Virus record (IMG/VR): IMGVR_UViG_3300046096_000317
Location: 1 to 28,930 of that record
DNA length: 28,930 bases
From: a virus
Strand: one strand, 5' to 3'
This document shows positions 5,718 through 26,316 of this stretch, in pieces; within the stretch, counting starts at the first letter, position 1, and each line of letters starts with the position of its first letter. The notes under the pieces were generated by a model. That model worked only from the letters and a program-made list of their open reading frames with translations. It was not told the origin of the DNA and did no database searches. Both the position numbers and the translations under genes were made by a program.

Positions 5718-5729
5718 TTGGATAAGCCC

Positions 5730-11700: not shown

Positions 11701-13694
11701 AAACCTTGATTAACTCAGTAGTAGGTGACATAGCTAGTGCGATATTCAGGAGTATCGTAGTGCCTATGGTTGCAGGTGCAGCCTTGGCAGATGGTGCAGT
11801 TGAGAAAATCGTTAGAGACTCTAAGGCAAAGTTGGAGGTGCTGGGCGCAATCTTTGCTTCGCAAGCGTTTAAAGACGGGCTTGCCAATGTAGCCAACTTA
11901 GTTGCAGGACTAATACCACCTATACAGCAGCTTAGCTATCAGTCTAACTACGCAGTAGTAGCTGTTGACTCACTAACTACGTCTGTAGGAGACTTAGGTA
12001 AAGCAGCAGAGACTAGCCTTAAAGACGCTAGAACAGGTGTACAGGCATTGCGTGATGAGGCTACTGATAGGTATGTAACTGCTCAAGAGAAGGTTATTGT
12101 TGCACAGCAAAATCTTGCTAACGCTATACACTCTACAGTCAAAAACTTTAAAGATTTTTTAGGCACACTAGATAACGCGCAGGCTCCTACAGAGAGACTG
12201 GCAGGAGCGAGGCAGAAATTTGAGGATCTGAGTACCAAGGCTAGAGATGGTGACATGGCTGCGCTTACCCAGCTCCCCGCTGCAGCTAAGAGTTTTTTAG
12301 ACTTGTCTAAGGGGTATAGCAAAACTGTTGTAGACTACCGTAGAGACGAGGCTAAAGTCCGAATCACTATGGAAGAAGCTATATTTGTTGGTAATGCGTA
12401 TCTCAAGACTTTGCCTGAGATTATGCAGGAGGTTAAAGATCCTATAACTGATGCGGCAGATAAGCTAGCAGATGCTTTAGTAGATGAAGCGGATGCTAGA
12501 GTAGAGGCTATAGCTATAATGGCTAGGCTTGAGCCATTGCAAAAGACTATCGGTGAGAGGTATCTAGAGCTTATTAAAGAACTGACTCCAGAAGAGGAGA
12601 AAGCTCTTAACGAGATGTACACTAAGGTCACTGGTGCGTATAAAGACCTTAAAGAACTAGGCATTGAGCCAAATCTTGCATCTAAGCTGATTGAAAAAGC
12701 GGCTACGGACAAACTTGCTATGTCTGGTGGTAAGTTAGGAAGCATGTACGACGAACTAACTGACTTACTAAAGGGCCTTGATATACCTGGATACTTCAAA
12801 TCCCTGGCTACAGCCTTGATAGATGCTGGCGATGTGGCTAGAAATGCGACTTCTGCAGCTAAAGCTCTTATAGAGAAAGCAGCCCAAGATAACGCAGACG
12901 CAATTAGAATTGCAGCCGCAGCGGCAGCGGCTAGGGCAGCAGCTAGTGCTGTAGGGCCTACACAGGGGCCACAAATACCTTACACAGGCCCTGCTATCCC
13001 TGTCACAGGGGGCGGTGGCCTAGTAACTGAGCCTGTAACCGGTTTGACTAAAGTAAGTGCAGTAGATACCGTGATTACTAACCCAGCCCCTGTAGTTACT
13101 CCAGCAATAGGCGTTACGCCAATAAGCACTACACTAATAGATGCTAGTAAAGCTCTAACTAACGTGCTTGGCTACAACGGCACTGGAACAGACGGGGCTA
13201 CTGCAAGTATAAGCGGTGGAGTGGTCACTGCAGTAAACTCTGGCGGTAACTATTCAGGCAGTCTAGTTGACACAGCTAAAATTTTTAGGCAGTATGAGAA
13301 GGCGAATGGTACAGAGGCTGCTATGTCAGTAGCTGCTGACCTAGGCTTTACTGGATCAGGTCTACAGCAGATTCTAGATGCAGCACCTAAATTTGCCAAG
13401 GGTGGTTACCACTCTGGAGGCTTGCGCTTAGTTGGTGAAAACGGCCCAGAGCTGGAGTCCACAGGTCCGAGTCGCATATACACAGCAGAGCAGACTAGAA
13501 TTATGCTAGGCAATAACAATGACAGCAATAATGCAGAGATACTAGCAGAACTAAAAGCTTTAAGAGAAGAGGTGAGGTTGGCACGGCAAAACTCGACCTT
13601 GGAAAACAACCAGATCATTCCCGCTGTCAAAAAAGTTGCCAATTACTGCGATAGGTGGAATACAATTGGCGTACCTACTACCGTTGTGGCATAA
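5730..13694 (+). CDS. Tail tape measure protein
   Basis: About 2,654 residues from ATG 5730; a TTG at 5718 would add four residues but has no better ribosome-binding site. The N-terminal 370 residues are coiled-coil-like and hold three 44-residue tandem repeats. Residues about 445-650 match the TP901-type tape-measure core (FEKSMFEIQELAG, TAYGYSSDKFTTVADV, LDDTARSLGMLAQIGI). Hydrophobic stretches at about 790-920 and 1565-1640 could enter or cross the host membrane during DNA injection. Long helical regions follow, then a Gly/Pro-rich hinge (about 2405-2440) and the common tail-end motif FAKGGYHSGGL ... GENGPEL (about 2554-2580). In siphoviruses the tape sets tail length; at the usual 0.15 nm per residue this predicts a tail near 400 nm (inference). 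No embedded peptidase motif was recognised. A patch at about 10480-10645 uses GCG-rich codons unlike the rest. Confidence 0.95.
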   Translation: MTDTANLNIDPSGVVTGVKKIESSINELFRTFKTFTSSLDTLNNAATKSMGSMYDELTIKAAKGENGLEQVRLDALVKMKADTRARLNVASGENTEIQRLYDSRLATASTLSNQELNVWKKFGANLGAIQKAQLQGTELAYLQGRLERAQEITSLASHLANVEAASVKLRAAYDKAVSGKRKSSELKAQLKEAEAEVEASRIRLAALNDAFDKSDVEAIARHNALLVVKRKAHLSEIIAEDRVAYELGEALYKSYVAEVTAAEKTANAAAVARRKAVLADIISEDKAAYELGEALYKSYVAEVTAAEKLANATAVARRKAHLADIIAEDKAAYELNEAILKSYLAEVTAAEKAAAKYANALHDDMLRDEIRYHTERAAIAKAGSKAVVAANNSINGMDFKPANAGLRGLTQGFGMLSIGISSMLPFLASFAAGFAFINTIKVGVQFEKSMFEIQELAGASTKQMDSLRESISKLADTTQYKPTEMAEGLSILSLAGLNANEAMTALVPTLNFAAAGGVRLEAAAGTLVAVGTAYGYSSDKFTTVADVIAKTAADTMSSVTNMSEAFKTSSVVAQQYGLTLDDTARSLGMLAQIGITGSAAGTSYRNMITEFNKGTGRAAEAIKKMGVQVTDTTGATRPLSLVMRELTAGLIAYTGASQQRILQDMTTERGAKSTAAYQAAALIQMNKMMPTLQREIDYLRQSGKEAEAKAYAIEAVGKAYAELDEKAAKAKVSEAGMAFFANLEKQFKPAEQLSGIAASLQEAFLKTFKALEAPLFNLGQEIRNLFKSDDFRNGLTTVASLMLNVVDATVAVSKFLIENSKAVLTAAAAYVGWKLALVSADIALIVGTATFAAAAMATKAFAAAMAVATGAANALTLSAALAGSTFAISGAAVLAITAGVVALGVAVVALTGYWLLSDTAAEKALNAQRDAANARRKVADAEVKALETQMSIQAEQLDASNRGNLRTLYDRQNNAKLTEIINDKTFQAFKARKEGELGLEKKLLDSVAMLKKSLVTEAQMEEKTRVDAANARIDMWVKEKEMILEAIRLNQIWGLTGLLGGGKSLEEAEAIADERYSNSLARIKGEAVAQKTGMAERIRLSVELQTKLAELDKKTAGTPRVVGGETYGSSSPAEQTKAQIEARTLKAKEDALLKVTDAIEKFNKGTSDMEQSLQKVTTAEMFEITVIQLLDKAVAMGAITWQNANKVIKEIEAAKAKRDDAEEVNGIQKIIDATVLLNEKLQSTLEVNTQLSAAESLKAQLSVASSKLTKEEAKVLADKAKMLLAVSVSLEAAKKDQEAYNKSVQDSINMRKEIRVLVETINVQSKAEKALEANRAEALRQGPEFLAKLEAETAITEKYSGQIAKFTESLELQEAAYNKVRDASDSWELIDKTELTRAREQLDELIALVAKLRGEAGDNALAKALTTQRDVFSSSLADAVMVGLEQGTEAGVASMRKVIEDEFLRKPIQLWIKATISEIMGGKGGNTSVGGVIAGIADGSTLTKLANLGQNLVGTGSINASVGKFVTSSMGETLGLSTANSVAFNGGGPMAQTFSPTTAGSVASNLPYMAMLTAYQQGGVGGFASGAASIALGGTITGGISALTAGTSVMAGAASGLTAALAAVPVYGWVALGAAALLGIGNKKFETTYGGDFTADQSGLKQTRSNGTGGNFANQVMEKSILGTTININSMLAGLGSKASVTSLSGGANSNMEKAESYSFAGGTLSTGQTFGSPTRLSDNLGKMAPEDVLKAFGIDLKRATLQALQAVADVPVTVADMMKGYDLATMKAEDVDAFYEVVNKVITDTQGLQGALKTLPFSNLTDLSFDAAAGLIKFSGGLEALSTNLTGYYDNYYTAEEKRAQSITNITRTLNAAGVAVTEAQVGAASRDDFRDLFESLKDLSGPEAQMAASAMLSVQGAFAELTPAAQEVRKTFQQLVKDAKTMTAEATEALVGFDAAGLGKMMLDAAFNPQAGMSAAQSFAVALETSIRQTLINSVVGDIASAIFRSIVVPMVAGAALADGAVEKIVRDSKAKLEVLGAIFASQAFKDGLANVANLVAGLIPPIQQLSYQSNYAVVAVDSLTTSVGDLGKAAETSLKDARTGVQALRDEATDRYVTAQEKVIVAQQNLANAIHSTVKNFKDFLGTLDNAQAPTERLAGARQKFEDLSTKARDGDMAALTQLPAAAKSFLDLSKGYSKTVVDYRRDEAKVRITMEEAIFVGNAYLKTLPEIMQEVKDPITDAADKLADALVDEADARVEAIAIMARLEPLQKTIGERYLELIKELTPEEEKALNEMYTKVTGAYKDLKELGIEPNLASKLIEKAATDKLAMSGGKLGSMYDELTDLLKGLDIPGYFKSLATALIDAGDVARNATSAAKALIEKAAQDNADAIRIAAAAAAARAAASAVGPTQGPQIPYTGPAIPVTGGGGLVTEPVTGLTKVSAVDTVITNPAPVVTPAIGVTPISTTLIDASKALTNVLGYNGTGTDGATASISGGVVTAVNSGGNYSGSLVDTAKIFRQYEKANGTEAAMSVAADLGFTGSGLQQILDAAPKFAKGGYHSGGLRLVGENGPELESTGPSRIYTAEQTRIMLGNNNDSNNAEILAELKALREEVRLARQNSTLENNQIIPAVKKVANYCDRWNTIGVPTTVVA
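6417..6812 (+). repeat. Three 132-bp (44-residue) tandem repeats in the tape measure
   Basis: Units start at 6417, 6549 and 6681, each beginning Arg-Lys-Ala and containing E-D-x-x-A-Y-E-L-x-E-A and SY-x-AEVTAAEK. Units 1 and 2 share 60 identical bases (6462-6521 and 6594-6653), so that duplication is recent or recently converted; unit 3 is more diverged. Confidence 0.92.
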
Positions 13695-13703
13695 TGCGAA
13701 ATC

Positions 13704-14672
13704 ATGGCTCTTAACGTCCTAAAACCAGCGACAAGCCCAACCCTACTGACTAACTCGGCAGTGGATAGCACCGACCCTGTGTATGCCGCAGGCACTACCT
13801 ATGCACTTGCCGCCGTAGTAAAGTATCAGAACTACAGGTACGAGAGCCTACAAGCAGCTAACATAGGTAAGACTCCTGACTCTCCGTTGTCAGGTAACTG
13901 GTGGTTAAAACTAGGGCCAACTAACCACTGGGCCTGTTTAGACACTAGAACTAGCACCGCTACTAAAGCTACAGGTTCTCTGATAGTCACTGTAAAACCT
14001 AATGCAATTGTCAATAGTGTGGCTGTACTAGGAATATCGGGGACTAGCCAGGTACAGGTGCAGGTATACAAGGGCTCTGGTAGGACCACTACTGGTGGAG
14101 ACACTGGTACAGGTGATCTTATCTACAACAGCATTAGAACAATGGATAATACCTATGTTTCTAACTGGTACCAGTGGCTATTTGAACCTTACGAAGTATT
14201 TACAGACTTGTTATTCGGTAACATGACAGGCTCTGCACTAGCTATAGACCGAGTAGCTCCATACTATTCCGCAGAGATAGTGGTAACTTGCACAGGTAAC
14301 TCTGGAGCCTCTATAGTAGGTGTAGCAGGCATACTTCTAGGCACTGCTGTAGAGCTAGGTACGGTCGATTACGGAGCAACCGCAGGTATCACTGACTACT
14401 CTATTAAAGAGACAGATGGTTTCGGTGAAATAACTCTTGTAGAGCGCGGGTTTTCTGACAAAGCAAACTACACTTTGACTGTTCCGAAGTCACAGATCAG
14501 GCGAGTACACAGTACACTATCTGCTTTGCGTGCAACACCTTGCGTGTGGGCCGCAAGCGATGATTATGATTTGAGCCCATTAACCGTTTACGGCTACCCT
14601 AAAGAGTTTCAACTGAATGTAGCGTATCCAGATGCCAGCACATACTCTTTAGAGATAGAAGGACTAACATAA
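13704..14672 (+). CDS. Distal tail protein with carbohydrate-binding-like N-terminus
   Basis: 322 residues, first gene after the tape measure, where siphoviruses encode distal tail or baseplate-hub proteins. Residues about 26-80 (PVYAAGTTYALAAVVKY, a YESLQAAN turn, PLSGNWWLKLGPTNHW) follow the pattern of small chitin/carbohydrate-binding-like modules frequent in phage tail proteins: Y-x-x-G-x-x-Y, aromatic strand, a Trp-x-x-x-G-P-T-N-x-W end. The remaining beta-rich region (about 85-322) is unassigned and resembles conserved phage tail proteins carrying this GPTN motif. The start lies 9 nt after the tape-measure stop with a poor ribosome-binding site, suggesting coupled translation. The exact baseplate role is inferred. 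Confidence 0.6.
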   Translation: MALNVLKPATSPTLLTNSAVDSTDPVYAAGTTYALAAVVKYQNYRYESLQAANIGKTPDSPLSGNWWLKLGPTNHWACLDTRTSTATKATGSLIVTVKPNAIVNSVAVLGISGTSQVQVQVYKGSGRTTTGGDTGTGDLIYNSIRTMDNTYVSNWYQWLFEPYEVFTDLLFGNMTGSALAIDRVAPYYSAEIVVTCTGNSGASIVGVAGILLGTAVELGTVDYGATAGITDYSIKETDGFGEITLVERGFSDKANYTLTVPKSQIRRVHSTLSALRATPCVWAASDDYDLSPLTVYGYPKEFQLNVAYPDASTYSLEIEGLT

Positions 14673-15521
14673 ATGCCAACAACAATTCCAACGCTACCAC
14701 CAGCACCTAGTGATAGGTCTGATCCAGCAACGTATAATACAGTAGCTAATACATGGGCTGCTGCTTTACCTGCTTACACAGTAGCAATGAATACTCTAGG
14801 TGGAGAGTTGACCACCATAGGGAATACCGCTACTGCATCCCAGGGTGCAGCAGCAACTAGTGCCACTAATTCTTCCAATAGTGCTACTCTAGCTGGTCAA
14901 TGGGCAACATTAGCTACATTAGTGGCTAGTACAGATTATTCGTCAAAAGAGTACGCTACTGGTGTAACAGCACCGCTGGGTAGCTCAAAGAACTGGGCTA
15001 CACAACTTGCAGCTACTGTTGCATCTAGTGGGGATTACTCATCAAAAGAGTACGCTACTGGTGTAACAGCACCGCTGGGTAGCTCAAAGAACTGGGCTAC
15101 TAAAGCTAATACAGCAGTTGCTAGCGGGGAGTTCTCTGCTAAGGAGCACGCGGTAGGCACTTCAGTTACTACAGGCTCAGCTAAAGATTGGGCGACTAAG
15201 TTAGCTTCAGAGGTTGTTACTGGTCAAGGGTTTGGTGCTAGAAAGTATGCTAACGATGCGGCTGCTAGCAGTGCGGAGGCTACTGCACTTAATATCCGAT
15301 ACCAAGGAGTTTCATCATTTGACCCTATCGTGAATAAGACTGGTGGAGCCTTAGTTGTTGGGGACTGGTACTTACGCACTACTGACAGCCTGCTCAGGGT
15401 GTATAATGGCACTATCTGGGTTACTGGTGTAGGGTCAGTAGCTGGCGTATCTAGTATAAACACACAAACAGGTGATCTTACATTACCTCCACTTCCACTT
15501 TTCTCACTAGGAGTTATATAG
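14673..15521 (+). CDS. Tail fibre protein with KEYA repeats
   Basis: 282 residues beginning directly after the preceding stop. The N-terminus is proline-rich (IPTLPPAPSDRSDPATY) then Ala/Ser/Thr-rich helix (about 45-90), probably a trimerising shaft. Three 33-residue units follow (about residues 88-185) with the S-x-KEYA/HA-x-G ... G-S-(S/A)-K-(N/D)-WAT pattern common in phage fibres. The C-terminus has a small beta module (SFDPIVNKTGGALVVGDWYL, RVYNGTIW) of the type found before fibre tips, ending in an unusual proline-rich tail (LPPLPLF). It is likely a structural fibre joining the distal tail to the receptor-binding proteins encoded next. Confidence 0.72.
   Translation: MPTTIPTLPPAPSDRSDPATYNTVANTWAAALPAYTVAMNTLGGELTTIGNTATASQGAAATSATNSSNSATLAGQWATLATLVASTDYSSKEYATGVTAPLGSSKNWATQLAATVASSGDYSSKEYATGVTAPLGSSKNWATKANTAVASGEFSAKEHAVGTSVTTGSAKDWATKLASEVVTGQGFGARKYANDAAASSAEATALNIRYQGVSSFDPIVNKTGGALVVGDWYLRTTDSLLRVYNGTIWVTGVGSVAGVSSINTQTGDLTLPPLPLFSLGVI
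14943..15100 (+). repeat. Direct repeat in the tail fibre gene (59 bp x2, 99-bp period)
   Basis: 14943-15001 and 15042-15100 are identical over 59 bases. A third, diverged unit follows at about 15130-15200 (SAKEHAVGTSVTTGSAKDWAT). Such repeats can expand or contract by recombination and so change fibre length. Confidence 0.92.
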
Positions 15522-15522
15522 C

Positions 15523-15900
15523 ATGGCAATAAATGCAAATTTCGCAGGCACCCCAAAAGTAGGGGCAGCGGTTATATCAGCGGCTAACACAGCACTTGAT
15601 GGTACAGGCACTGTACCAGTAGTCTTTACTGCGGGGGCTAGTGGTTCTCGCTTAGATAGTGTGACAGTAAAAGCACTTACTACTACTGTTAATGGTATGG
15701 TTCGATTGTTTCTGCATAATGGCACTACGTTTTTTCTATTAACTGAAATAGAGATGATGGCAGCTACTTCAAGTACTACTACAAAATCTGCTGAAAATGG
15801 TATAACTCTTAATATTGTTATTCCTACAGGTTGGAGTCTAAGAGCTTCTACCAGTATTGCTCAAAGTTACAATGTAATAGCTATTGGAGGTGATTTCTAA
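15523..15900 (+). CDS. Small beta-rich tail-tip/fibre-associated protein
   Basis: 125 residues, predicted all-beta, opening MAINANFAGTPKVGAAVISA. The pattern 'VKALTTTVNGMVRLFLHNGTT' (split here as VKALTTTVNG and MVRLFLHNGT) followed by an acidic strand and a late IPTGWSLRASTS strand is seen in small phage proteins encoded beside tail fibres, probably a single beta-sandwich domain. No enzymatic residues are visible. The stop overlaps the next ATG (TAATG), indicating coupled expression with the large repeat protein, so it may be its attachment, capping or chaperone partner. Confidence 0.5.
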   Translation: MAINANFAGTPKVGAAVISAANTALDGTGTVPVVFTAGASGSRLDSVTVKALTTTVNGMVRLFLHNGTTFFLLTEIEMMAATSSTTTKSAENGITLNIVIPTGWSLRASTSIAQSYNVIAIGGDF

Positions 15901-18338
15901 TGAACTACGGTACTTACTCCTTTCCCAAGAAGTCTTATGATTTCGATATGGACACCGAAGGTACGGTGGCTTTGGTAGCCGCCTCGACTATACAGTCCGG
16001 TGATATAGTCTTTAATACTTTAGATGGGGCAGTTTCGCTGCAAGTGCCACAACCTGTCACATCTACTATAGACAATAACTCTACTAGCCCAATTTACCCC
16101 GTAGAGTTGGTTACCCCCTCAAGTGAGAACGCTATTGCAATATGCACACTAGTCAGTGGGGATACCGTAGTTGTAACAAGTACAGCTACTGCTGTAAAAT
16201 TCAGCCGTTACAACTCTTCAGGTGTACTTCAAGGTAGTATAACTACTGTAGAGACGCTTTCTTCAGTTCAGACTGTGGATGTTGCAGCCTTGACAGGGGG
16301 TAGTTTTGTTATAGCTTATGGGTATAATGTTGCAGGCGTTAAATTTGCACAGTACTCTTCTACAGGCACATTGGTAGGCTCAATTACCAATATCCAGAAC
16401 CCTGGACAGTTGGCTAGAGTAGCAGTAGCTCCACTGACTAGTGGTAACTTTGTTGTAATTTGGGGTATATCTGGTGGTGGTGCTAGTTTTGCTCAGTACA
16501 CTACAGCCAACGCTCTAGTCGGGAGTGTTACGTCACCAAGTTGGCCTGGTGGTGCTTCATCTTCATCTGTGGCTGTAGCTGGGCTTACTAATGGTAATTT
16601 TGTAGTAATTAGGGGGGGAGGTTCTAGTGGGTCAGTCGAGGCTTACCAGTATAACTCAAGTAATACTATAATTGGTTCGGTTATTACATTACAGACTAAT
16701 TTAACGACTTATTCATATGTGGGTGTCACAGGTTTAGAAAACGGCTCTTTCGCCTTGGTTTACCAAATGGAATCCAACCAAGTGCGCTACAGGATATACA
16801 ACACCAGCAATACTCTCATTTACGGTGATGTAGTACTCGCTAACGGCAATAACGGATGGTTGGCTGTTAGAACTCTAGCCAACGGTAATTTTGTAGTAGT
16901 CTACCAAGTTATTACAGGTACTCAGCCTGTGTACTACACCCAACTTACCCCCCTAGGAGCTTTTGTAGGGCTTAAGGATAACCTTGTTGGTACTTCCGCA
17001 GCAGGTTCTGGGCTAAGTGTAGCAGGCTTCAGTGATAGCAGTTTTGCTATTGCTTACTGTAACGCTGCAGGTCACTACTTTACTAAATTTAATAAAGTTT
17101 CTGCAGTACTTCCAGCACTTATCCCGCAACTTGACACTACGCTACATTCCACCCAGTACTCGATTCAGAGTATGGAACCAGCATCTACTACTAATGGCAG
17201 AGTAGCAAGTACACTTTTAGCCAATGATTGTTTTGTAGTAGCTTACGGTACAAATAACGAATCCGTCAGACTGTCCATAAGGCATCCTACAGGGCAACTT
17301 AAAGTAGGGCCAATTTCTATTGATAAAACTAACACAAATACTCAGGTTTCACTGTGCACTTTGGCTAATGGAAATTTTGTGCTAGCATTTATGGGTGTCT
17401 CCCAAGTTGGAAATTATCCCAAGTTTGTACAGTATACACCCGAAGGTGTCCGTGTAGGCTCAATAACTACAGTAGAAGCTAGCTCAGTTAACTCCCTAGC
17501 CATAACAGCTCTTAATGGTGGTGGTTTTGTTATCGCTTATTTGATCTCATCAAATGTCTTAAAATTTAATCAGTACGATAGTACTGGTACAATTGTTGGG
17601 TCTACTACTACAGTTGCGTCCTCTATTACGAACCCTATAGCCGCAGCTACTTTAACTAACGGTAACTTTGTAATAGCTTATCAAAATGCTACCAACGCAT
17701 TTTTTGCAATCTACAACACAAGTAATCAACAGCTTATATCCAGTAATGCAGACACAGCCACTATCACTAGTCCGTACCCTATCGCTGTAGTCTCCTTACC
17801 TAGCAGCAACTTCGCAATAAGCTGGTTTGTTACTAATGCTAGATTTGCAATCTTTGCACCTTCTGGGGTACGGGTAGGGGCGGTAATTACACCTGAAGTT
17901 ATAGGTACTGTAGCTATAGCTTTGGGGGTCGCAAGGAATGGTAATGTCTTATGTCTGTCAGGTGGCAAGCTGCACCAATACACATTGTCTGGTAATCTGG
18001 TGGGTTCTGTAGCTGTGGGTGGCAGCGGCACTACCAACGTTGCTGTGGCTATCTCAACGCTTACCAATGGGAGTATTGTATCGACCTACACTTTAGGTTC
18101 AGTTACTAATATCATTATACACACACCAAGTGCTAGGTATGTCTCAGGTGTTGCTCTCAATAACGCTTCCGTAGGTGACTATGTACGGGTTAGGTACATC
18201 AAGTCTGATTACCGAGCAGGTTCATTTAGTACCCGAGAAACCTTTGGTGTTGGTCTTAGTTTTGACCATAGAAGCCTTGGGGGTATCGCTGGGACTATTT
18301 CTAGCAAAACTCTATTCTCTAGAGGGCTTGCGTCATGA
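15900..18338 (+). CDS. Large repeat protein, putative beta-propeller receptor-binding protein
   Basis: 812 residues. From about residue 78 to 747 there are about 14 repeats of 42-55 residues with the core L-x-N-G-x-F-V-(V/I)-x-Y followed by a strand, a Q-Y/I-Y-N-x-S/T-G-x-x-V-G turn and a variable loop (for example LTNGNFVIAYQ, LANGNFVVVYQ, LNGGGFVIAYL). This is the four-strand blade rhythm of beta-propeller-type repeats, known from bacterial surface proteins. A non-repeat stretch (about residues 400-430) separates the first seven repeats from the second seven. The C-terminal 65 residues (VSGVALNNASVGDYVRVR onward) form a different, capping-like module. It lies between a fibre gene and a DUF4376-type gene, so host-surface binding is the likely job. 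The repeat call is firm; the propeller fold and receptor role are inference. Confidence 0.7.
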   Translation: MNYGTYSFPKKSYDFDMDTEGTVALVAASTIQSGDIVFNTLDGAVSLQVPQPVTSTIDNNSTSPIYPVELVTPSSENAIAICTLVSGDTVVVTSTATAVKFSRYNSSGVLQGSITTVETLSSVQTVDVAALTGGSFVIAYGYNVAGVKFAQYSSTGTLVGSITNIQNPGQLARVAVAPLTSGNFVVIWGISGGGASFAQYTTANALVGSVTSPSWPGGASSSSVAVAGLTNGNFVVIRGGGSSGSVEAYQYNSSNTIIGSVITLQTNLTTYSYVGVTGLENGSFALVYQMESNQVRYRIYNTSNTLIYGDVVLANGNNGWLAVRTLANGNFVVVYQVITGTQPVYYTQLTPLGAFVGLKDNLVGTSAAGSGLSVAGFSDSSFAIAYCNAAGHYFTKFNKVSAVLPALIPQLDTTLHSTQYSIQSMEPASTTNGRVASTLLANDCFVVAYGTNNESVRLSIRHPTGQLKVGPISIDKTNTNTQVSLCTLANGNFVLAFMGVSQVGNYPKFVQYTPEGVRVGSITTVEASSVNSLAITALNGGGFVIAYLISSNVLKFNQYDSTGTIVGSTTTVASSITNPIAAATLTNGNFVIAYQNATNAFFAIYNTSNQQLISSNADTATITSPYPIAVVSLPSSNFAISWFVTNARFAIFAPSGVRVGAVITPEVIGTVAIALGVARNGNVLCLSGGKLHQYTLSGNLVGSVAVGGSGTTNVAVAISTLTNGSIVSTYTLGSVTNIIIHTPSARYVSGVALNNASVGDYVRVRYIKSDYRAGSFSTRETFGVGLSFDHRSLGGIAGTISSKTLFSRGLAS
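16131..18140 (+). repeat. About 14 degenerate ~48-residue protein repeats
   Basis: Repeats at roughly 48-codon spacing, each with an (A/L)-x-x-L-x-x-G-x-F-V-(I/V) core. They are conserved as protein, not DNA, so they are ancient. An interruption at about 17110-17200 divides them 7 + 7. Confidence 0.75.
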
Positions 18339-18844
18339 AACTCTTAAATGTAGATGGTAGCGTCATCATTGAAGCAGACAGCATCACCTATGACGGGAGC
18401 TTACAGGCTTGGGTTGTAGGTAATGATGCGTACACAGATCAAAGTCTAAGGTATATGTTGGACACAGACCCATCAATAGCTTTTAATTTGGCTACAGCTA
18501 AGCTAGCTAAGAACCTTGAGATTAACAGGTGGAGGGCACAAGCTAATCAAACTACTTTTAATCACGCCGGTAAAGTGATAGCTTGTGATGCTCTGAGTCG
18601 TAGTGATATTGATGCAGTAGCAGGCAGTGTAGCCTTGAATGGGGCGTTTCCAGTAGGATTTCCTAACGCATGGAAAGCTGTGGACAACTCATATTTGGCT
18701 TTACCAGACATTGAGGCGTTCAAAGCCTTGTATGGCTCTATGACACTGCAAGGTACTATCAACTTTGGTCAGTCTCAGACTTTGAAAGCTGCACTAGCTG
18801 CTGCTGCTACAATTGACGAAGTTAACGCTATAGCGTGGGCCTAA
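18335..18844 (+). CDS. DUF4376-like tail fibre accessory protein
   Basis: 169 residues with start and previous stop overlapping (ATGA). The N-terminal 55 residues (VDGSVIIEADSITYDGSL) look like a small beta tail-attachment module. Residues about 55-169 show the DUF4376 pattern: a helix ending NLEINRWRAQANQTTF, a short strand with an ALSRSDIDAVAG turn, an AWKAVDNSYLALP stretch, and a final helix LKAALAAAATIDEVNAIAW. DUF4376 proteins occur beside phage and prophage tail fibre genes and are thought to be fibre tips or assembly factors. The assignment rests on pattern and position. Confidence 0.65.
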   Translation: MKLLNVDGSVIIEADSITYDGSLQAWVVGNDAYTDQSLRYMLDTDPSIAFNLATAKLAKNLEINRWRAQANQTTFNHAGKVIACDALSRSDIDAVAGSVALNGAFPVGFPNAWKAVDNSYLALPDIEAFKALYGSMTLQGTINFGQSQTLKAALAAAATIDEVNAIAWA

Positions 18845-18845
18845 T

Positions 18846-19343
18846 ATGAACTACAAACAAGTTCGACCTTTAATCAAGTCCGGTGACCTACTTGCTTGGT
18901 CACACAGAGCACCTTGGTATAAGTCTTGGTACGACTTTAAGATCGCTATGGTGCGTGCTTTTACTCAATCTGAGTACAGTCATGTAGGCATAGCTTGGTG
19001 CATTGGCGATAGGGTATTTGTACTAGAATCAGTAACACCTCTAGTGCGTATATATCCTCTGTCTAAACTAGGAGAGTTCTACCATGTGCCGCTGCCAGTC
19101 AACTGGGAGGATGCCCCACTTGAATACGCCCTGTCTAAAGTGGGGGAACCATACTCTCAGTTACAGGCTATACAGGCTGTTTTCAACACACCTAAAGATG
19201 ACAGTTTTTGGCAGTGTGCAGAGTACGCAGCAAGAGTGTTAAGGCTTGCTGGTATAGGTTTAGGGGACAACTACACACCTACCGCCTTGGTACGAGAAGC
19301 CATGTTACAGCACGACTCTAGAGTTACACTAATTAAGCCATGA
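18846..19343 (+). CDS. Permuted NlpC/P60 (YiiX/C92-like) cysteine peptidase/amidase
   Basis: 165 residues. The order SGDLLAWSH (residues 12-20), SEYSHVGIAW with candidate catalytic His46, VFVLES with Glu61, then WQCAEYAARVLR with candidate nucleophile Cys124 and a closing TPTALV strand is the circularly permuted NlpC/P60 arrangement (YiiX/YebB-like, MEROPS C92). Related enzymes cut cell-wall peptide or lipid-linked amide bonds. There is no signal peptide, so the protein either acts in the host cytoplasm or is carried in the virion. Its place just after the receptor-binding genes and before a papain-like gene (4-nt ATGA overlap) fits a virion-associated wall hydrolase. The family call is good; the substrate is unknown. 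Confidence 0.72.
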   Translation: MNYKQVRPLIKSGDLLAWSHRAPWYKSWYDFKIAMVRAFTQSEYSHVGIAWCIGDRVFVLESVTPLVRIYPLSKLGEFYHVPLPVNWEDAPLEYALSKVGEPYSQLQAIQAVFNTPKDDSFWQCAEYAARVLRLAGIGLGDNYTPTALVREAMLQHDSRVTLIKP

Positions 19344-20248
19344 TCCAAGAATACATACCACCACGTACTAACTACCTTCACGTTCCTCGACCAGAGAACC
19401 AAGGGTTTTTACTTAGCTGTACTCGCTTTGCTTTAACTAGTGCACTTGAATCTCTAGCAGCAGCAGCAGGAGAGTCTATACAGTTATCTGTTAGATTTCT
19501 GTGGTACTACACAGATAAAACTAAACTAAGTATAGAAAGTGCCGTAGAGACTATTAACACTATAGGTACTTGCTTGGACTCTTTGTGCCCTTATGTCGTT
19601 AACCCCGAAGCACCTTACAACATAATCGACATTGATACACCCCCTAGTCTTGCAGCTTTGTTAGATGCACAATCACGCAAGTTTGATGTACAGATAGAAG
19701 CCATAGCAGGTAAGACAGAGATTATGCGTGCGTTAGCCCAAGGTTCACGCTTGATGATTAACAGCATACCGGGACAGTTTGCGGAACATGCAGAAGCTGC
19801 TATAGGTTATGATATTGATAAAGGTGTGCATATTCAAGGGTCAGGTAACACTAACTATTGGGAACCTTGGGTTAGTTTTAGTAATGGTATAGTTACCAAA
19901 GTCTGGGCTATTACAAAGTCACCTTGGCCGCTTATACCTCACCCTGACTACATACCAGAGTCAGCGCCAGAGTTTGATGGTACAACTTTGAAGATACCTA
20001 AAGGTAGGGTCTATAAAGGTTGGCCTACACCTAGCGAACACTTCATAAATATAAAACTTAGATTTAGCAGTTTTGGCACTGTAAAAGTGAACGACCCCCG
20101 CGTTTATGGGAGAGAGGTGATATACTTCGAATCGGCTGCGCGGCTTTCTTTACCTGTGGTTTTTGTCAATGGCGTGCGTTACGAACGTGTCAGTTTGACT
20201 GGATCTGTAGTGGAGCATGTAAGCGCAGAGCCAGCGCCGCCATTTTAA
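19340..20248 (+). CDS. Papain-like (C1-type) cysteine peptidase domain protein
   Basis: 302 residues. The N-terminal domain follows the papain fold motifs: NQGFLLSC gives an oxyanion Gln21 and nucleophile Cys27, the same 6-residue spacing as papain Q19/C25. It is followed by the active-site helix (TRFALTSALESL), then EHAEAAIGYD with His150, like the papain HAVAAVGY. The third motif reads HIQGSGNTNYWEPW; where papain has Asn175 in NSWG this protein has Gly167, although Asn170 or Asn172 is close. Residues about 200-302 form a beta-rich C-terminal domain with no match I recognise. No signal peptide is seen. It could process a structural protein, cut a host protein, or act at the cell envelope. 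Genuine phage-encoded C1 peptidases are unusual. The fold is well supported by motif spacing; activity is uncertain. Confidence 0.68.
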   Translation: MIQEYIPPRTNYLHVPRPENQGFLLSCTRFALTSALESLAAAAGESIQLSVRFLWYYTDKTKLSIESAVETINTIGTCLDSLCPYVVNPEAPYNIIDIDTPPSLAALLDAQSRKFDVQIEAIAGKTEIMRALAQGSRLMINSIPGQFAEHAEAAIGYDIDKGVHIQGSGNTNYWEPWVSFSNGIVTKVWAITKSPWPLIPHPDYIPESAPEFDGTTLKIPKGRVYKGWPTPSEHFINIKLRFSSFGTVKVNDPRVYGREVIYFESAARLSLPVVFVNGVRYERVSLTGSVVEHVSAEPAPPF

Positions 20249-20267: not shown

Positions 20268-20711
20268 ATGCTAATTCAGCACTCGAAAAAAGATCGTAGC
20301 AGCACTAAACGAGCTACACTACTGGCTCTTTTAGACTCAGACGTATCAGCATTACGTATAGCTTTAGCCATAGGCGCAATGCTTTTTGGATTAGGCTTAC
20401 TTGTTAGCGACATGGGAGAAGACAACGCAGCTTACGTGCGTATGTTCTATCTAGCCCCAGCATGGCTATGGGCAACCGCTTTTTTTACCTATGCCGTTGG
20501 CAAGCTCTATATTGCTATAAGCTGGCCAGAGAGAATACCTAAAAGCCTTGCTGCGGCTATTATAACTTTAGGTTTATTCTTGTGGTCTTATGTTTACTTT
20601 AGCTTTATAGCTGATGGACAGAGCCCTGCTGAGTATATGATGACAAGTCTACTGATTTGCGAGGTCTGGATTGGTGCTCATACAATGGCTGGAGGAAAGT
20701 GTGTTGATTGA
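20268..20711 (+). CDS. Four-helix membrane protein
   Basis: 147 residues. Four hydrophobic segments are apparent at about 28-47, 60-83, 92-114 and 119-141, with a basic N-terminus (KKDRSSTKRA) expected in the cytoplasm. No motif identifies it. Between the peptidases and the lysis genes it could be a holin, an antiholin, or an inner-membrane protein for entry or exclusion. The next gene overlaps its 3' end by 11 nt. Confidence 0.6.
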   Translation: MLIQHSKKDRSSTKRATLLALLDSDVSALRIALAIGAMLFGLGLLVSDMGEDNAAYVRMFYLAPAWLWATAFFTYAVGKLYIAISWPERIPKSLAAAIITLGLFLWSYVYFSFIADGQSPAEYMMTSLLICEVWIGAHTMAGGKCVD

Positions 20712-21111: not shown

Positions 21112-21221
21112 CAGAAGGTACTACAGCTCTTATACTGCTGCTAGTTATTGTAACTATTACTGGCGTATGCGTCTACTTAGACAGTATTGCCGATAAGGAG
21201 AAAGACGATGAAGTTGAGTGA
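21108..21221 (+). CDS. Small single-pass membrane peptide
   Basis: 37 residues. It starts in ATGA overlap with the upstream stop and runs 14 nt into the endolysin gene. It has one hydrophobic helix (ALILLLVIVTITGVCVYL) followed by a charged tail (DKEKDDEVE). Its last codons contain the AAGGAG ribosome-binding site of the endolysin, so translation of the two is linked. A pinholin-like or holin-modulating role is possible; translation itself rests on overlap and coding plausibility. Confidence 0.5.
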   Translation: MTEGTTALILLLVIVTITGVCVYLDSIADKEKDDEVE

Positions 21222-21711
21222 CCACTTTACTTATGAAGAAGCCACTTTCTCCGATACAGCCGTTCGCTGTGGCGTCAGGAATGAACCCGACTCAGGTCAA
21301 CTAGCTGCCATGAGAAAAGCTGCAGAAAGTATGGAGAAAGTGCGTAGCTTACTGGGCTTACCTATCTTGATTAACTCATGGCTACGTATTGAGCCATTAG
21401 AGAGACTCGTAGCTAAAAAAGACTACGAGGGCTGGTGTGTCAATAGAGGTTACAAAGCAGATGACGAATCCTGGGCCTTATACTTTTCTCGCAAATCACA
21501 CCCAAAAGGGTACGCCATAGACTTCAGATGCCCACAATTTGGTACACCATTGCAAATCTGCCAAGCACTAGTAGCTACAGACCTTAGATTTAATCAGCTT
21601 ATACAAGAAGGTACATGGGTTCATATTGATTTCTCCCCTGCTATGAAGATGGAGGTTAAGACAGCAGGGTTTGGGGCTAGCGGTGTACCTACATACACAG
21701 TAGGGCTGTAG
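21208..21711 (+). CDS. Endolysin, M15-family peptidase
   Basis: 167 residues from the ATG at 21208, which has AAGGAG 7 bases upstream; an upstream TTG at 21187 would add seven residues and is less likely. The start LSDHFTYEEATFSDTA is the usual N-terminal motif of phage M15 (VanY/M15_3-like) peptidases. Zinc ligands are visible as SHPKGYAIDF (His98, Asp105) and WVHID (His139, with Asp141 beside it). Between strand ILINSW and His98 there is an enlarged loop (about residues 58-97). The enzyme would cut peptidoglycan cross-links (L-alanyl-D-glutamate or D,D-peptide bonds). With no signal peptide it needs a holin to reach the periplasm; the surrounding TM genes supply candidates. Confidence 0.82.
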   Translation: MKLSDHFTYEEATFSDTAVRCGVRNEPDSGQLAAMRKAAESMEKVRSLLGLPILINSWLRIEPLERLVAKKDYEGWCVNRGYKADDESWALYFSRKSHPKGYAIDFRCPQFGTPLQICQALVATDLRFNQLIQEGTWVHIDFSPAMKMEVKTAGFGASGVPTYTVGL

Positions 21712-21713
21712 CG

Positions 21714-22091
21714 ATGGTAGAGACGTATGGTTCAGCAGTTTTACTCGGCGTAATAGCAATAGCTGCGTGTTATATGCTGTACCGTTGGCAGCATAACCAC
21801 CCTAACTTTGACTTGTCAGATTTACTGACTGGCGATAATGGTAAAGTGAGTCTTGCTAAGTTTGGACAGGCTGCAGCACTGATAGTCAGTACCTGGGGTT
21901 TTGTAGCACTTGTGCAGCAAGGTAAACTTACTGAGAGCTACTTTGTAGGTTACATGGGTATTTGGGCCGGCTACCGCCTAGCCCAGTCAGCAATCGGTAA
22001 ACAAGCGGAGAACCAAAATGGTCTTTCTAAACCTAATACCACGAACAGCCCTCCTAGCTGCAGTTGTCCTCCTGACCGCCCTGTTAGCTAA
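21714..22091 (+). CDS. Holin-like membrane protein
   Basis: 125 residues, immediately after the endolysin. Helix 1 lies at about residues 5-22 (SAVLLGVIAIAACYMLY) and helix 2 at about 52-68 (AAALIVSTWGFVALV), with a possible third at about 77-92. The middle (FDLSDLLTGDNGKVSLAKF) is a conserved phrase in a group of small phage membrane proteins annotated as holins. The last 25 residues, rich in Pro, Ser and Cys, overlap the start of Rz by 74 nt in another frame. Position strongly suggests a holin or lysis regulator. Confidence 0.6.
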   Translation: MVETYGSAVLLGVIAIAACYMLYRWQHNHPNFDLSDLLTGDNGKVSLAKFGQAAALIVSTWGFVALVQQGKLTESYFVGYMGIWAGYRLAQSAIGKQAENQNGLSKPNTTNSPPSCSCPPDRPVS

Positions 22092-22521
22092 AGCTGCATG
22101 GGACGGGCACCAAGATGGTCAAGAGTTAATGAAACTGACTGACAAAATTAGCCAGCTTGAAAGTAATATTAAAGACAGCCAGTTTGCGGCTGCTAGTGCC
22201 CGGATTATTAACCTGAAGAAACTAGATGAGGCCAAAAATGCAGCTAAAAAACGTGAGAAGCAGTTACGTGATGATATTGATAGTCTCAAGTCTATCTCTG
22301 ATGGGCTGCGAACATCTGTCACAGAGGCCCGAATCATCTATCAGCTTGACGGAACTGCCCAAACCCCCAGAGACAGACTTGCCGATTTCGGGTACGAGTT
22401 ACTTGAAAGATGCGAAAGCAGATATCTCTCAGTGGCAGGACGAATTGAGGGCTATGTTGGATACATACAAGAACTTAGAGAAGCTTGGCCCACCACCCAA
22501 GCCTGTACTGCCAAGCGTTAA
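22018..22521 (+). CDS. Rz: Inner-membrane spanin Rz
   Basis: 167 residues with a GGAG site 7 bases before the ATG. An N-terminal signal-anchor helix (about 8-26, ALLAAVVLLTALLAKAAW) is followed by a long periplasmic coiled coil (about 33-115) and a short C-terminal region (about 120-167) expected to contact the outer-membrane partner. This is the i-spanin layout. Spanins fuse the inner and outer membranes in the last step of Gram-negative lysis, which fixes the host's envelope type. A second frame inside this gene encodes Rz1. Confidence 0.8.
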   Translation: MVFLNLIPRTALLAAVVLLTALLAKAAWDGHQDGQELMKLTDKISQLESNIKDSQFAAASARIINLKKLDEAKNAAKKREKQLRDDIDSLKSISDGLRTSVTEARIIYQLDGTAQTPRDRLADFGYELLERCESRYLSVAGRIEGYVGYIQELREAWPTTQACTAKR

Positions 22522-22525
22522 ATAG
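22238..22525 (+). CDS. Rz1: Outer-membrane spanin lipoprotein Rz1 (embedded in Rz)
   Basis: Lies in the other frame inside Rz and ends 4 nt beyond it. From ATG 22238 (GAGG 6 bases upstream) it has 95 residues; an ATG at 22226 is also possible. It has a basic N-region, a hydrophobic core (VMILIVSSLSL) and the lipobox LMGC with Cys24 as the lipidated residue, followed by a mature part rich in proline (LPKPPETDLP, GPPPKPVLP). This is the o-spanin signature. It is longer than lambda Rz1 and carries a helical segment (about 60-85). Nesting in Rz is typical. Confidence 0.85.
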   Translation: MQLKNVRSSYVMILIVSSLSLMGCEHLSQRPESSISLTELPKPPETDLPISGTSYLKDAKADISQWQDELRAMLDTYKNLEKLGPPPKPVLPSVK

Positions 22526-24580
22526 CTATAGTTGCACTACCGTAGTAGCGAAGCTATCGCATAGCTGACTGTGAGTCACAACAACTACTTGGTCGTAAGA
22601 GACTGTACTGAGTAGCCCCAGCATAGCCGCTTCCCTTGTATCGTCCATCCCCGCGCTGGGTTCGTCCAGCAACAGGAACCCTACCGAGGGCAGAAACGTC
22701 TTGCCAAGGGCCATACGGATAGCCAGCCCTAGAGCATCTAGGGTAGACCCTGAAAGCCCCGCCACGGCCCTGCCGTTGGCTTGGAAAGAGTTAGCAGTCC
22801 TTGTTACAGAAGTCACCTCTCCACGTATCTGACTGAAGTAAGTAGACACAGAAGCTAGCACTATGGCCCACAATCTTGAAGCTACTACTGGCCTAGCCTC
22901 TCGTAGCTTCTTAATTAGCGCGTTATTTTTCTGCATGAACAGTAGAGACTGCTCTAGTATCGTCTTACTAGCCAGCGACTTCGTGTAAGCGTCTAACATA
23001 GTCTCATACCTATAAATTACCTGCTCTAACTTATGTCTAGCTTCCTGTGCAGCTACTCTAGTAGAGTACACTAGAGCCTGTTTACTGGTAATCTTTTTAC
23101 CAAGCTCTCGTTTACTCAGCAGAGCGGCTTCAGAAACCTGTTTAATAGAGTAGTCTACTCTACAGGTCTCCAGCTCTCGCTCTATATCTGCACATCTATC
23201 TGCAAGGTTTAGATGCACAGCCATAGACTTGTCGTAGCTAGACTTGAGATGCTCAGCCTGTTTAATCTGGTTACTGTAGTCTGTAACGTCAAGGTCGTCA
23301 GGTATGACACCTGCAATCCATGTAACCCTAGCTGGAAGGTGTCTACTGTCTATCCTCATATAGCTACCAAGTCTAGCGTATAGGCTTCGGACAGATAAAT
23401 CTATCTTCCTGAGCATGTTCAGCTCGTCTTGAACGGCCTTGAAGCCTTCAAGTACTTGCTTATCTCTGCTTTCAGATACCTGCAATTCAGCTATAGCTTC
23501 TGTATGCTTAGCGTTCTTAAACACCACCTCTGGTACGTCAGACAAGTCTTTGCCACACAGCCCACAGGCGGTCTCTGTGATAAGCATAGCCTTGTGTGTA
23601 GCTATCTGCTCTCTGGTATCTGATAGCTGTTTGCGACAGGCCTCCATACCTTTCGTGTTTACTGCCCACAATGTGTCATAATCACCCTCTCTAGACTGGG
23701 CAAACTGCTCCAGCTTCAAGAACTGCTTATAAGCGCCAAGCTTTTCAATATTTGCGTTAGCTATTTTTTGCTTCTCGCGTAAGCTGTGTGCTGATATAGC
23801 GGGCTTTACCGGCACAATTTGCAAATCTTTCTTAGCCTGTTTAAGGGCAGACTCAAGTGTGGCTCTCTGTTGCTCTGCCACCACAACTCTTGCAATTGCA
23901 GTGGTGTGATAACCTTCATCTACGTCATCAGAGGCTATAAGTGCAGCCAGATCTAACTCTTCTAGACTTAAAGCACTGTTGGCAAATTCCAGAACAGGCT
24001 CTAAGTCTGACACATCTAAAACAGGCTTCTCAAGCTTAGATAAGTCGTCAATAGCTGCTACCACATTAGCCGTGTTACCGCACGGCAATTGAGCTTGTAT
24101 TTTGTTAATTAGACTATCAATCAGGTCTATGTTAGCTAGCCTCTCAATAAGAGGTACGGCCTCACCAGACTCAAGTGCACCCCGCAGGCCATTCTGACTT
24201 GCAATCATCAACTTAGTAGCCGCATCAGCATTGATACCAAACAACTTTTCTACAAACTTTGTGACCTCAGCCTGTCCATTGGCAGTCACTGTGCCATTGC
24301 TAATAACTGCACCAGACTTGCTGCGAACAATTTTGTAGGTAGAGCCTTCAAAGATAAAGTCCATCTCTACCCTGAGAGACGCCTCCGGTTTGTTGTAAGT
24401 AACAGTCTCTGCTAGTGTTAAGGGCAGTGCCCGTGCACCAAAGAAGGCATATACAATAGCCTGAAATCTTGTGGATTTAGATGACTCATTGGCACCCCTC
24501 AAAGCTGTTAAGCCTTTGCCAAATACCATTGTATCATCTTCAACTTTTTTGAAGTTAACTAACCGCAATCTAGTTATCAT
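22526..24580 (-). CDS. sbcC: SbcC/Rad50-like recombination ATPase (T4 gp46 type)
   Basis: 684 residues. Domains in order: an N-terminal ATPase lobe with a P-loop-like GANESSKST (residues 29-37); coiled coil; a CGLC zinc hook (Cys339, Cys342); returning coiled coil; a C-terminal lobe with ABC signature LSGS (609-612), Walker B FLLLDE (635-640), D-loop (SAGMDD) and H-switch His670 in VVVVTHS. With the SbcD-like nuclease it should form an Mre11/Rad50-type complex for end resection and recombination-dependent replication or host DNA breakdown. The P-loop lacks the Gly normally before Lys (Ser34 instead) and has Glu32 as in Rad50-type NE-x-GKST loops. The start overlaps the HNH stop (ATGA); the stop abuts the rightward Rz1 gene with no gap. 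Confidence 0.9.
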   Translation of the reverse strand: MITRLRLVNFKKVEDDTMVFGKGLTALRGANESSKSTRFQAIVYAFFGARALPLTLAETVTYNKPEASLRVEMDFIFEGSTYKIVRSKSGAVISNGTVTANGQAEVTKFVEKLFGINADAATKLMIASQNGLRGALESGEAVPLIERLANIDLIDSLINKIQAQLPCGNTANVVAAIDDLSKLEKPVLDVSDLEPVLEFANSALSLEELDLAALIASDDVDEGYHTTAIARVVVAEQQRATLESALKQAKKDLQIVPVKPAISAHSLREKQKIANANIEKLGAYKQFLKLEQFAQSREGDYDTLWAVNTKGMEACRKQLSDTREQIATHKAMLITETACGLCGKDLSDVPEVVFKNAKHTEAIAELQVSESRDKQVLEGFKAVQDELNMLRKIDLSVRSLYARLGSYMRIDSRHLPARVTWIAGVIPDDLDVTDYSNQIKQAEHLKSSYDKSMAVHLNLADRCADIERELETCRVDYSIKQVSEAALLSKRELGKKITSKQALVYSTRVAAQEARHKLEQVIYRYETMLDAYTKSLASKTILEQSLLFMQKNNALIKKLREARPVVASRLWAIVLASVSTYFSQIRGEVTSVTRTANSFQANGRAVAGLSGSTLDALGLAIRMALGKTFLPSVGFLLLDEPSAGMDDTREAAMLGLLSTVSYDQVVVVTHSQLCDSFATTVVQL

Positions 24581-25272
24581 TCGTAACCTCTTTTCTTCAA
24601 TATGATATTGCTTATTAAGCTTCTACTTACACCGTACTTTGCAGACAACTCTAATTTAGATATTCCGTTAGAGAATGCCAACCTTATATCCTCACAGTCA
24701 GAATCTTTTAACTTTCTAACAGGGTTAGCTTCTCCGCGAACAGGCGTATAGTTTTTAGGGCTGTACGCTTTTCCAGGAAGCAGTCCACCACATCTTACCT
24801 CTTTAGTAAGAGCCTCTTCTGCTGTGTATCCTAGTACATTTATTCTAGCTTTTATGGTGTGGTAACCTATCCCAAGTTCTTTAGACCACTCCATCCATGA
24901 TTGAGTCTTACCATTGAAGGTAAGAGTTTTGGCTATTCGGGTATTTCTGGTCTGTTCTAGTCTAGTAGCCCATACACAATTTTCAGGACTATAAGGTTTC
25001 TCATTGTCCACTCTCTCTAAAGTCATGCCTTCAGGCCGCAGTCCCATATCTTGCAAATAGTTATCAAACCCTTTCTCCGGGTCTAACCATCTATCGCAAA
25101 TAGTGATACCTCTGCCACCGTAATACCTGTAATCAGGATTGCTTGGATTAGTGCATCTTTGCTTTGTAATACCGAACGCAGACTTCATTGCTTTAATCCT
25201 AACCAGCAATGCTTCAGGCGTCATATTGGCATCTTCGGGCCTCACTGCAATTGTTTCAAGATTAGTATTCAT
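24577..25272 (-). CDS. HNH homing endonuclease with C-terminal HTH
   Basis: 231 residues inserted between the two subunits of the SbcCD-like complex. The core (about residues 38-110) has the phage HNH-type pattern RCTNPSNPDYRYYGGRGI, ICDRW, a DMGLRP turn, LERVDNEKPYSPENCVWAT (catalytic and metal-binding D/N/N positions) and LEQTRNTR. A middle region (about 115-165, TLTFNGKTQSWMEWS, LGYTAEEAL) looks like a NUMOD-type DNA-binding repeat. The end (about 190-228, LSAKYGVSRSLISNII) is a helix-turn-helix. Free-standing endonucleases of this kind cut a cognate allele lacking the gene. It ends in ATGA with sbcC. Its ribosome-binding site is weak and a perfect hairpin lies upstream. Confidence 0.82.
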   Translation of the reverse strand: MNTNLETIAVRPEDANMTPEALLVRIKAMKSAFGITKQRCTNPSNPDYRYYGGRGITICDRWLDPEKGFDNYLQDMGLRPEGMTLERVDNEKPYSPENCVWATRLEQTRNTRIAKTLTFNGKTQSWMEWSKELGIGYHTIKARINVLGYTAEEALTKEVRCGGLLPGKAYSPKNYTPVRGEANPVRKLKDSDCEDIRLAFSNGISKLELSAKYGVSRSLISNIILKKRGYE

Positions 25273-25317: not shown

Positions 25318-26316
25318 CTACTCCAACCCTTTCAGGACGGTCATTTCGTCCTTGGTTAAAACCTCTGCCAAGGCCGCGAGAACGTCGAAAGCCCTAACAC
25401 TCTCAAGCGACTCGCCAAACCCTGCTGCGCCCGATTCTGTAGCGATTCGCACACCGTTTGACACGACAAACGCCGAGCTTGCTGCGCGGAATTTTGCCAC
25501 AGCACTGACCACTTGAGCGGCTTGTTCGGCGGTAGCATCACCTACTAGCTTGACAAACTTGTGATCGGTAATCTCAGGGCTATCCCAAGGTTGTTCACTG
25601 TAGTGGTCAGCTCTATCGGCTATCTTCAGTAGAGTGACTACACCTTCAGCAGTTACCTGTGTAAGGTACTTAGCATCACACCCCTGCCAATCTGAAACCG
25701 AGGTTGGAATCTGGTTGCCAGGAATAATTACTTTACCGTCTTGTTTAGTTACATGCTCGTGGGCTATAACAATCTTCTTTGCTTTACAGGCAGTAACTTG
25801 TTCCTTACTTATATTCAAGGATTGGTCGCTCTGTGCAGCAAAGAAGTTGTCATAGTTTACATGCAGAAACAGTACTTTGCATTCAGGTACTTTAAGTAGC
25901 TCTATGTCAAACATCTGCTGGTTAGGCATATGAGAGATGACATAGCCATAGGGTGTCAGTACTCCACCACCCTTGATAACTGCTACTGTGTGCGGAAAGT
26001 ACTGCTTAAGCAGCTCGCCTAGCATATCGAAACTAGATAGCTTACCGCTAGTCTTCTCGTCGTCGTGATTTCCGCTAACCAAATACAGTGTGCGTCCTCG
26101 CTCTAACCACTCAGACAGAGCAGTGTATGCAAACAGCAGATCAGACAAAGCTACTTGAGCTTTATCGAATAAATCACCCAAGATCATCAAGTCTGACCCA
26201 GCAGGTAGGGACTTGAAGGTGGTCTGCATATAGCTAGTCAAGGCTAACTGACTAGCCTGTGTAGTACCTGAAGACCTTATGGTCCCGATGTGTGTATCAT
26301 TTATGACTGTTAGCAT
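25318..26316 (-). CDS. sbcD: SbcD/Mre11-like nuclease (T4 gp47 type)
   Basis: 332 residues. The metallophosphoesterase motifs are complete: NDTHIG (Asp7, His9), ILGDLFD (Asp48), SGNHDD (Asn83, His84), LHVNYD (His152) and IAHEHV (His186, His188), which bind two Mn ions in this family. The C-terminal 100 residues (from about 235) are the capping or ATPase-docking region, and the last 65 codons are GC- and CpG-richer than the rest. It partners the SbcC-like protein. The start follows the nuclease stop directly (TAGATG) and is served by GGAG in the preceding gene's end. Confidence 0.9.
   Translation of the reverse strand: MLTVINDTHIGTIRSSGTTQASQLALTSYMQTTFKSLPAGSDLMILGDLFDKAQVALSDLLFAYTALSEWLERGRTLYLVSGNHDDEKTSGKLSSFDMLGELLKQYFPHTVAVIKGGGVLTPYGYVISHMPNQQMFDIELLKVPECKVLFLHVNYDNFFAAQSDQSLNISKEQVTACKAKKIVIAHEHVTKQDGKVIIPGNQIPTSVSDWQGCDAKYLTQVTAEGVVTLLKIADRADHYSEQPWDSPEITDHKFVKLVGDATAEQAAQVVSAVAKFRAASSAFVVSNGVRIATESGAAGFGESLESVRAFDVLAALAEVLTKDEMTVLKGLE

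Follow-up and report, generated by a model that had tools for sequence, protein, structure and literature searches.

A close described counterpart of the locus considered here is found in Alteromonas phage V22, where RBP gp26 is followed by the DUF4376 chaperone gp27 and then by gp28, a 'permuted papain-like amidase' (PMC7289586). V22 gp27 has been experimentally shown to be a fibre chaperone (PMC7289586, PMC10579305), and both V22 gp27 and A5 gp9 are DUF4376 fibre chaperones proposed to serve as transient caps (PMC7289586, PMC10579305). The role given to gp28 comes from annotation only, as viral metabolism and protein catabolism (PMC7289586, PMC10579305). Relatives of the C92 family to which such amidases belong are described as acting on acyl-amide bonds, and a lipid-linked role has been discussed for them (PMC3142127, PMC10318531); an envelope acyl-amide target for C92 proteins is therefore plausible. 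One YiiX-like protein, LnsA, is involved in the N-acylation of lipoproteins (PMC7387801).

The window analysed here, which comprises the whole of a 28,930-base IMG/VR virus record, contains a fibre-chaperone-C92 arrangement directly followed by a second cysteine-enzyme gene and a lysis cassette. The relevant features are as follows, in window positions:

13704-18844: tail-fibre genes, the last member being the DUF4376 gene
18335..18844, plus strand: DUF4376-type tail-fibre chaperone gene, directly 5' of the C92 gene (Pfam DUF4376, E=5e-13)
18846..19343, plus strand: P0001, predicted C92/YiiX-like permuted papain-like enzyme, 165 aa (PHROG 1128, E=5e-13)
19340..20248, plus strand: P0002, divergent C1 papain-family protein, 302 aa (C1 profiles, E=3.5e-5 and 3e-9)
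19340-19924, plus strand: putative catalytic-domain region of P0002, about residues 1-195 (confident stretch of the AF2 model)
19925..20248, plus strand: C-terminal extension of P0002, residues about 196-302, without Pfam or PHROG match and mostly at pLDDT <50
20268..20711, plus strand: holin-like membrane protein whose gene opens the lysis cassette (hydrophobic segments and, weakly, a PHROG holin match at E=0.04)
21187..21711, plus strand: M15 endolysin (PHROG 894 endolysin, 6e-21; Pfam Peptidase_M15_3, 8e-7)
22018..22525, plus strand: Rz-like spanin (PHROG 312 Rz-like spanin, 4e-6)
22226-22525, plus strand: ORF nested in the Rz-like spanin, with a lipobox-like LMGC read from the sequence

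The ORFs of P0001 and P0002 share an ATGA overlap, and their coordinates, lengths and overlap are exactly those of the initial annotation. Its placement of the pair between tail-fibre genes and a lysis cassette is likewise correct, with the holin-like ORF, the M15 endolysin and the Rz-like spanin lying downstream. A search with PADLOC found no link to anti-phage defence. Elsewhere in the window, a single tape-measure-like ORF of 2,658 aa spans 5718-13694, and SbcC-like and SbcD-like genes with an HNH-endonuclease-like ORF between them occupy 22526-24580, 24577-25272 and 25318-26316 (minus strand), with genes resembling ThyX and a family A DNA polymerase after them, all as read from the sequence.

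We think it fairly probable that two gene modules meet at this point, a host-recognition module of fibre, chaperone and C92 enzyme and a lysis-side C1 protease, and that they do not make up one system. This reading draws on two patterns, namely that C92 genes travel with the fibre chaperone and that C1 genes stand in or beside lysis genes in phages Morgana, Mufasa8 and MMB025.

The evidence on P0002 indicates a divergent, shortened member of the C1 papain family. A first C1 profile, made from papain plus nine other C1 proteins with P0002 left out, was run against 5,391 targets including 3,000 shuffles; it scores P0002 at 22.3 bits (E=3.5e-5), and the best non-self or shuffled target reaches 6.4 bits. 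Leave-group-out profiles mostly give lower scores, the worst being 10.0 bits (E=0.2), with P0002 the top protein every time. A viral C1 profile raises the score to 34.7 bits (E=3e-9; best non-self 6.5 bits), and a direct phmmer comparison with the viral C1 protein L168 gives 1.2e-7. These profile tests were controlled with shuffles and ORFs, and the scores, far above those of the shuffles, bear out the earlier papain-like call. The Pfam C1 model itself (PF00112) does not match P0002. Nothing useful came from searches of P0002 against Pfam, PHROGs, NCBIfam, PADLOC and PDB sequences, from a tblastn search covering 50,697 phage records with an E limit of 10, or from pattern-seeded scans of viral and genome contigs; the motif pattern QGxxxSCTxFA returned chance matches only.

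Gln21, Cys27 and His150, the last opening HAEAAIGYD, are located as originally claimed and coincide with positions that do not vary among 59 viral C1 proteins. An AF2 model made with an alignment of these 59 relatives is confident for about residues 1-195, with Cys27 starting a helix (27-42) and His150 starting a strand (150-158). Because that alignment consisted of C1 proteins, the model supports a papain fold and is not independent proof of it; from the single sequence, AF2 gives a pLDDT of 32. Residues 197-302 are mostly at pLDDT <50 with few strands, and the model does not confirm the 'beta-rich C-terminal domain' proposed for this part of the protein. No signal peptide is evident in the N-terminus of P0002 when read by eye.

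The catalytic Asn of P0002 is uncertain, one alignment placing Asn171 on the C1 Asn and others placing Gly or Ser there, so the protein may have little activity or none, and that it is a degenerate or inactive form is a real possibility. In its stronger form, in which P0002 has lost catalysis or is decaying and now serves as a binding or structural module, this explanation appears rather unlikely: the ambiguous Asn, the absence of GGH and NSWG and the loss of about 20-25 residues before His150 all fit it, but Gln21, Cys27 and His150 are retained together despite strong divergence and the frame stays open for 302 codons.

The initial annotation had called papain-like proteins rare in phages, a view that the searches do not support. 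At least 120 viral stretches match one fixed-spacing C1 pattern in viral contigs, some of which may be cellular, and all 80 loci examined among the matches listed hold genuine C1 proteins. C1 proteins also occur in isolated phages of Gordonia, Arthrobacter, Burkholderia and Alicyclobacillus. In Gordonia phage Morgana, the gene order is lysins A, C1, holin, lysin B; in Arthrobacter phage Mufasa8, the C1 gene lies in or beside the lysis cassette; and in Alicyclobacillus phage MMB025, the endolysin is glycoside-hydrolase-like and peptidoglycan-binding and has a C1 domain fused at its N-terminus. The neighbours of other C1 genes in viral contigs are mixed and include portal, terminase, sheath and fibre genes. 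Viral C1 genes are thus not confined to lysis neighbourhoods, which counts against the meeting of two modules proposed above.

Two further sets of C1 genes were encountered outside this comparison. A papain tblastn in phages returned two faecal 'Bacteriophage sp.' records, L082 and L083 (MT837935, MT839909), which were set aside as bacterial-looking; their C1 peptidases have RNA-methyltransferase-like and cell-wall-amidase-like genes as neighbours, and the records resemble fragments of bacterial chromosomes. Behind the plasmid C1 peptidase genes in L089, L084 and L086, or at a distance of one gene from them, are I42 protease-inhibitor genes.

P0001, for its part, belongs with the permuted C92/YiiX-like enzymes. 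As a single sequence it matches the Pfam C92 model (PF05708) at E=0.0032, under the curated cut-off, and the NCBIfam YiiX model partially at 3e-5. A profile of eight phage relatives finds 3KW0 from B. cereus (9e-9) and E. coli YiiX, 2IF6 (0.0012), as its top PDB matches, and with the active-site Cys and His retained the earlier YiiX-like call stands. The candidate catalytic residues His46, Glu61, Tyr103 and Cys124 follow the C92-type permuted order of His, polar residue, Tyr and Cys. Among 45 non-redundant relatives, His46, Tyr103 and Cys124 are kept in every one, and the position of Glu61 is Ala, Ser or Glu, mostly one of the first two. P0001 is probably catalytically active, as a Cys-His amidase or a hydrolase of acyl-amides. 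Its N-terminus, read by eye, has no evident signal peptide.

PHROG 1128 and some phage records label C92-type proteins 'enoyl-CoA hydratase/carnithine racemase-like', and such a label falls on window 18846-19343 and on L217:3242-3748, L010:5935-6453 and L011:7016-7426. Sequence and profile comparisons of these proteins favour C92 permuted papain-like enzymes over that label.

The association of C92 genes with the fibre chaperone is tight. Seeds were picked by DUF4376 homology to the window gene alone, regardless of downstream content, which gave 57 viral loci, 54 of them with at least 600 bp downstream. A C92-type gene lies immediately 3' of the DUF4376 gene in 43 of the 54 and anywhere in 46, some of these loci being near-identical (38 DUF4376-linked C92 sequences are non-redundant at 90%). 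By comparison, just 4 of 60 loci gathered via another tail gene contain a C92 gene. L231, L265 and L269 have a tail-sheath-like gene next after C92, and C92 therefore follows the tail and not lysis. One locus carries a 427-aa ORF with NPDL-type repeats between its DUF4376 and C92 genes (L080:6206-7486), so the module can accept an inserted gene. Taken together, gene order across these loci suggests that C92 travels with the fibre-chaperone module. No published description of the linkage was found, and this conserved linkage is the useful part of the analysis, worth following.

Should the linkage prove functional, dozens of phages unrelated to one another would each have an enzyme coupled to the tail-fibre chaperone, and the PHROG 1128 label 'enoyl-CoA hydratase / host takeover' is suggested to be wrong for these genes. 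A more specific proposal, which we advance only tentatively, is that a widespread phage module pairs the DUF4376 chaperone with a dedicated C92 Cys-His enzyme that would either remove the chaperone cap or, while the phage adsorbs, act at the fibre tip by hydrolysing an acyl-amide of the envelope. Were it true, it would add to tail-fibre function an enzymatic step for which no description was found. The linkage is directly testable in V22, where fibre and chaperone have already been expressed and assayed.

Cap removal is the main alternative to an envelope acyl-amide target for C92. As an explanation in its own right, with the C92 enzyme acting as a maturation factor that frees the tail fibre of its DUF4376 chaperone cap by clipping or release, it fits the very tight linkage and the likeness of the proposed V22 gp27 and A5 gp9 caps to chaperone domains that are autoproteolysed elsewhere (PMC10579305). 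It nonetheless seems improbable: V22 gp26 and gp27 co-expressed without gp28 separated on gel filtration (PMC7289586), so C92 is not needed for chaperone release in V22, and the enzymes related to C92 are those described as acyl-amide-bond enzymes (PMC3142127, PMC10318531).

The initial annotation had gone further and proposed that P0001 and P0002 may form an undescribed two-enzyme unit, and the lack of recurrence in related phages had been set beforehand as a refuting condition. A C1 gene or P0002 homologue was found in 0 of the 54 DUF4376 loci, and a C92 gene in none of the roughly 120 viral C1 loci listed, many of which have short flanks. Nor does a C1 gene stand beside C92 in L001, V22, Slickus01, ctfzr933 or XC31. 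Among the loci examined, MMB025 alone has C92 and C1 in one tail-lysis interval, where they are non-adjacent: a tail fibre is followed by a C92-like gene, which bears the PHROG 1128 label and scores 17.6 bits against the C92 profile, and then by two small genes, HNH and the endolysin with its N-terminal C1 domain. As this interval holds both, the combination is not wholly unique. That the two enzymes act jointly on the envelope or on one host protein is very doubtful. The ATGA overlap, the active-site Cys/His dyads retained in both proteins and the shared interval of MMB025 speak for it, but no second adjacent case turned up in any of these sets and the nearest C92 relative of P0001 (L001, 56% identity) directly precedes a predicted membrane protein. 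What stands of the earlier interpretation is two distinct cysteine-enzyme folds with their Cys and His; the rarity and the two-enzyme unit are not supported.

We thus return to two modules meeting at a boundary. P0001 would be the C92 member of a recurring host-recognition module of tail fibre, DUF4376 fibre chaperone and C92 enzyme, and probably works with the fibre at the host envelope, as the phage adsorbs or enters, or else takes part in maturation by acting on the fibre and chaperone cap. P0002 would be optional C1 protease cargo on the lysis side. Its probable course is to build up in the cytoplasm and to act late, once the holin opens the membrane, cleaving protein in aid of the M15 endolysin and spanins; a late protease that assists lysis is its most likely role. 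The analysis shows where the genes lie, which families they belong to, that DUF4376 and C92 are linked, that His, Tyr and Cys are conserved and that the pair does not recur in the loci covered; the catalytic activity, substrates, timing and location of both enzymes are inferred. Against this division stands the ATGA overlap, which hints that translation, and with it perhaps function, is coupled.

Set beside the known systems, the window resembles V22 in that a C92 gene of the PHROG 1128 type comes right after the DUF4376 chaperone, and differs from it in that V22 has no C1 gene at that place. P0001 shares with 3KW0 and YiiX (2IF6) the order His-(polar)-Tyr-Cys, and the spacing of its His46 and Glu61 (15) equals that of His49 and Glu64 in both structures (PMC3142127). 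Unlike C92 YiiX/YaeF-like NlpC/P60 enzymes, P0001 has no evident signal peptide and scores under the Pfam cut-off, and its phage relatives depart from the YiiX/YaeF-like enzymes in mostly having Ala or Ser at the Glu position. The phage C1 'cysteine proteases' compared with P0002, namely Gordonia Morgana gp30, Arthrobacter Mufasa8 gp26, Burkholderia FLC9 gp163 and the MMB025 endolysin domain, share its C1 papain-family domain, and three of the four lie beside or inside lysis genes. P0002 differs from them in lacking GGH and NSWG, in its shorter Cys-His distance (123 residues versus about 145) and in having a C-terminal extension of its own.
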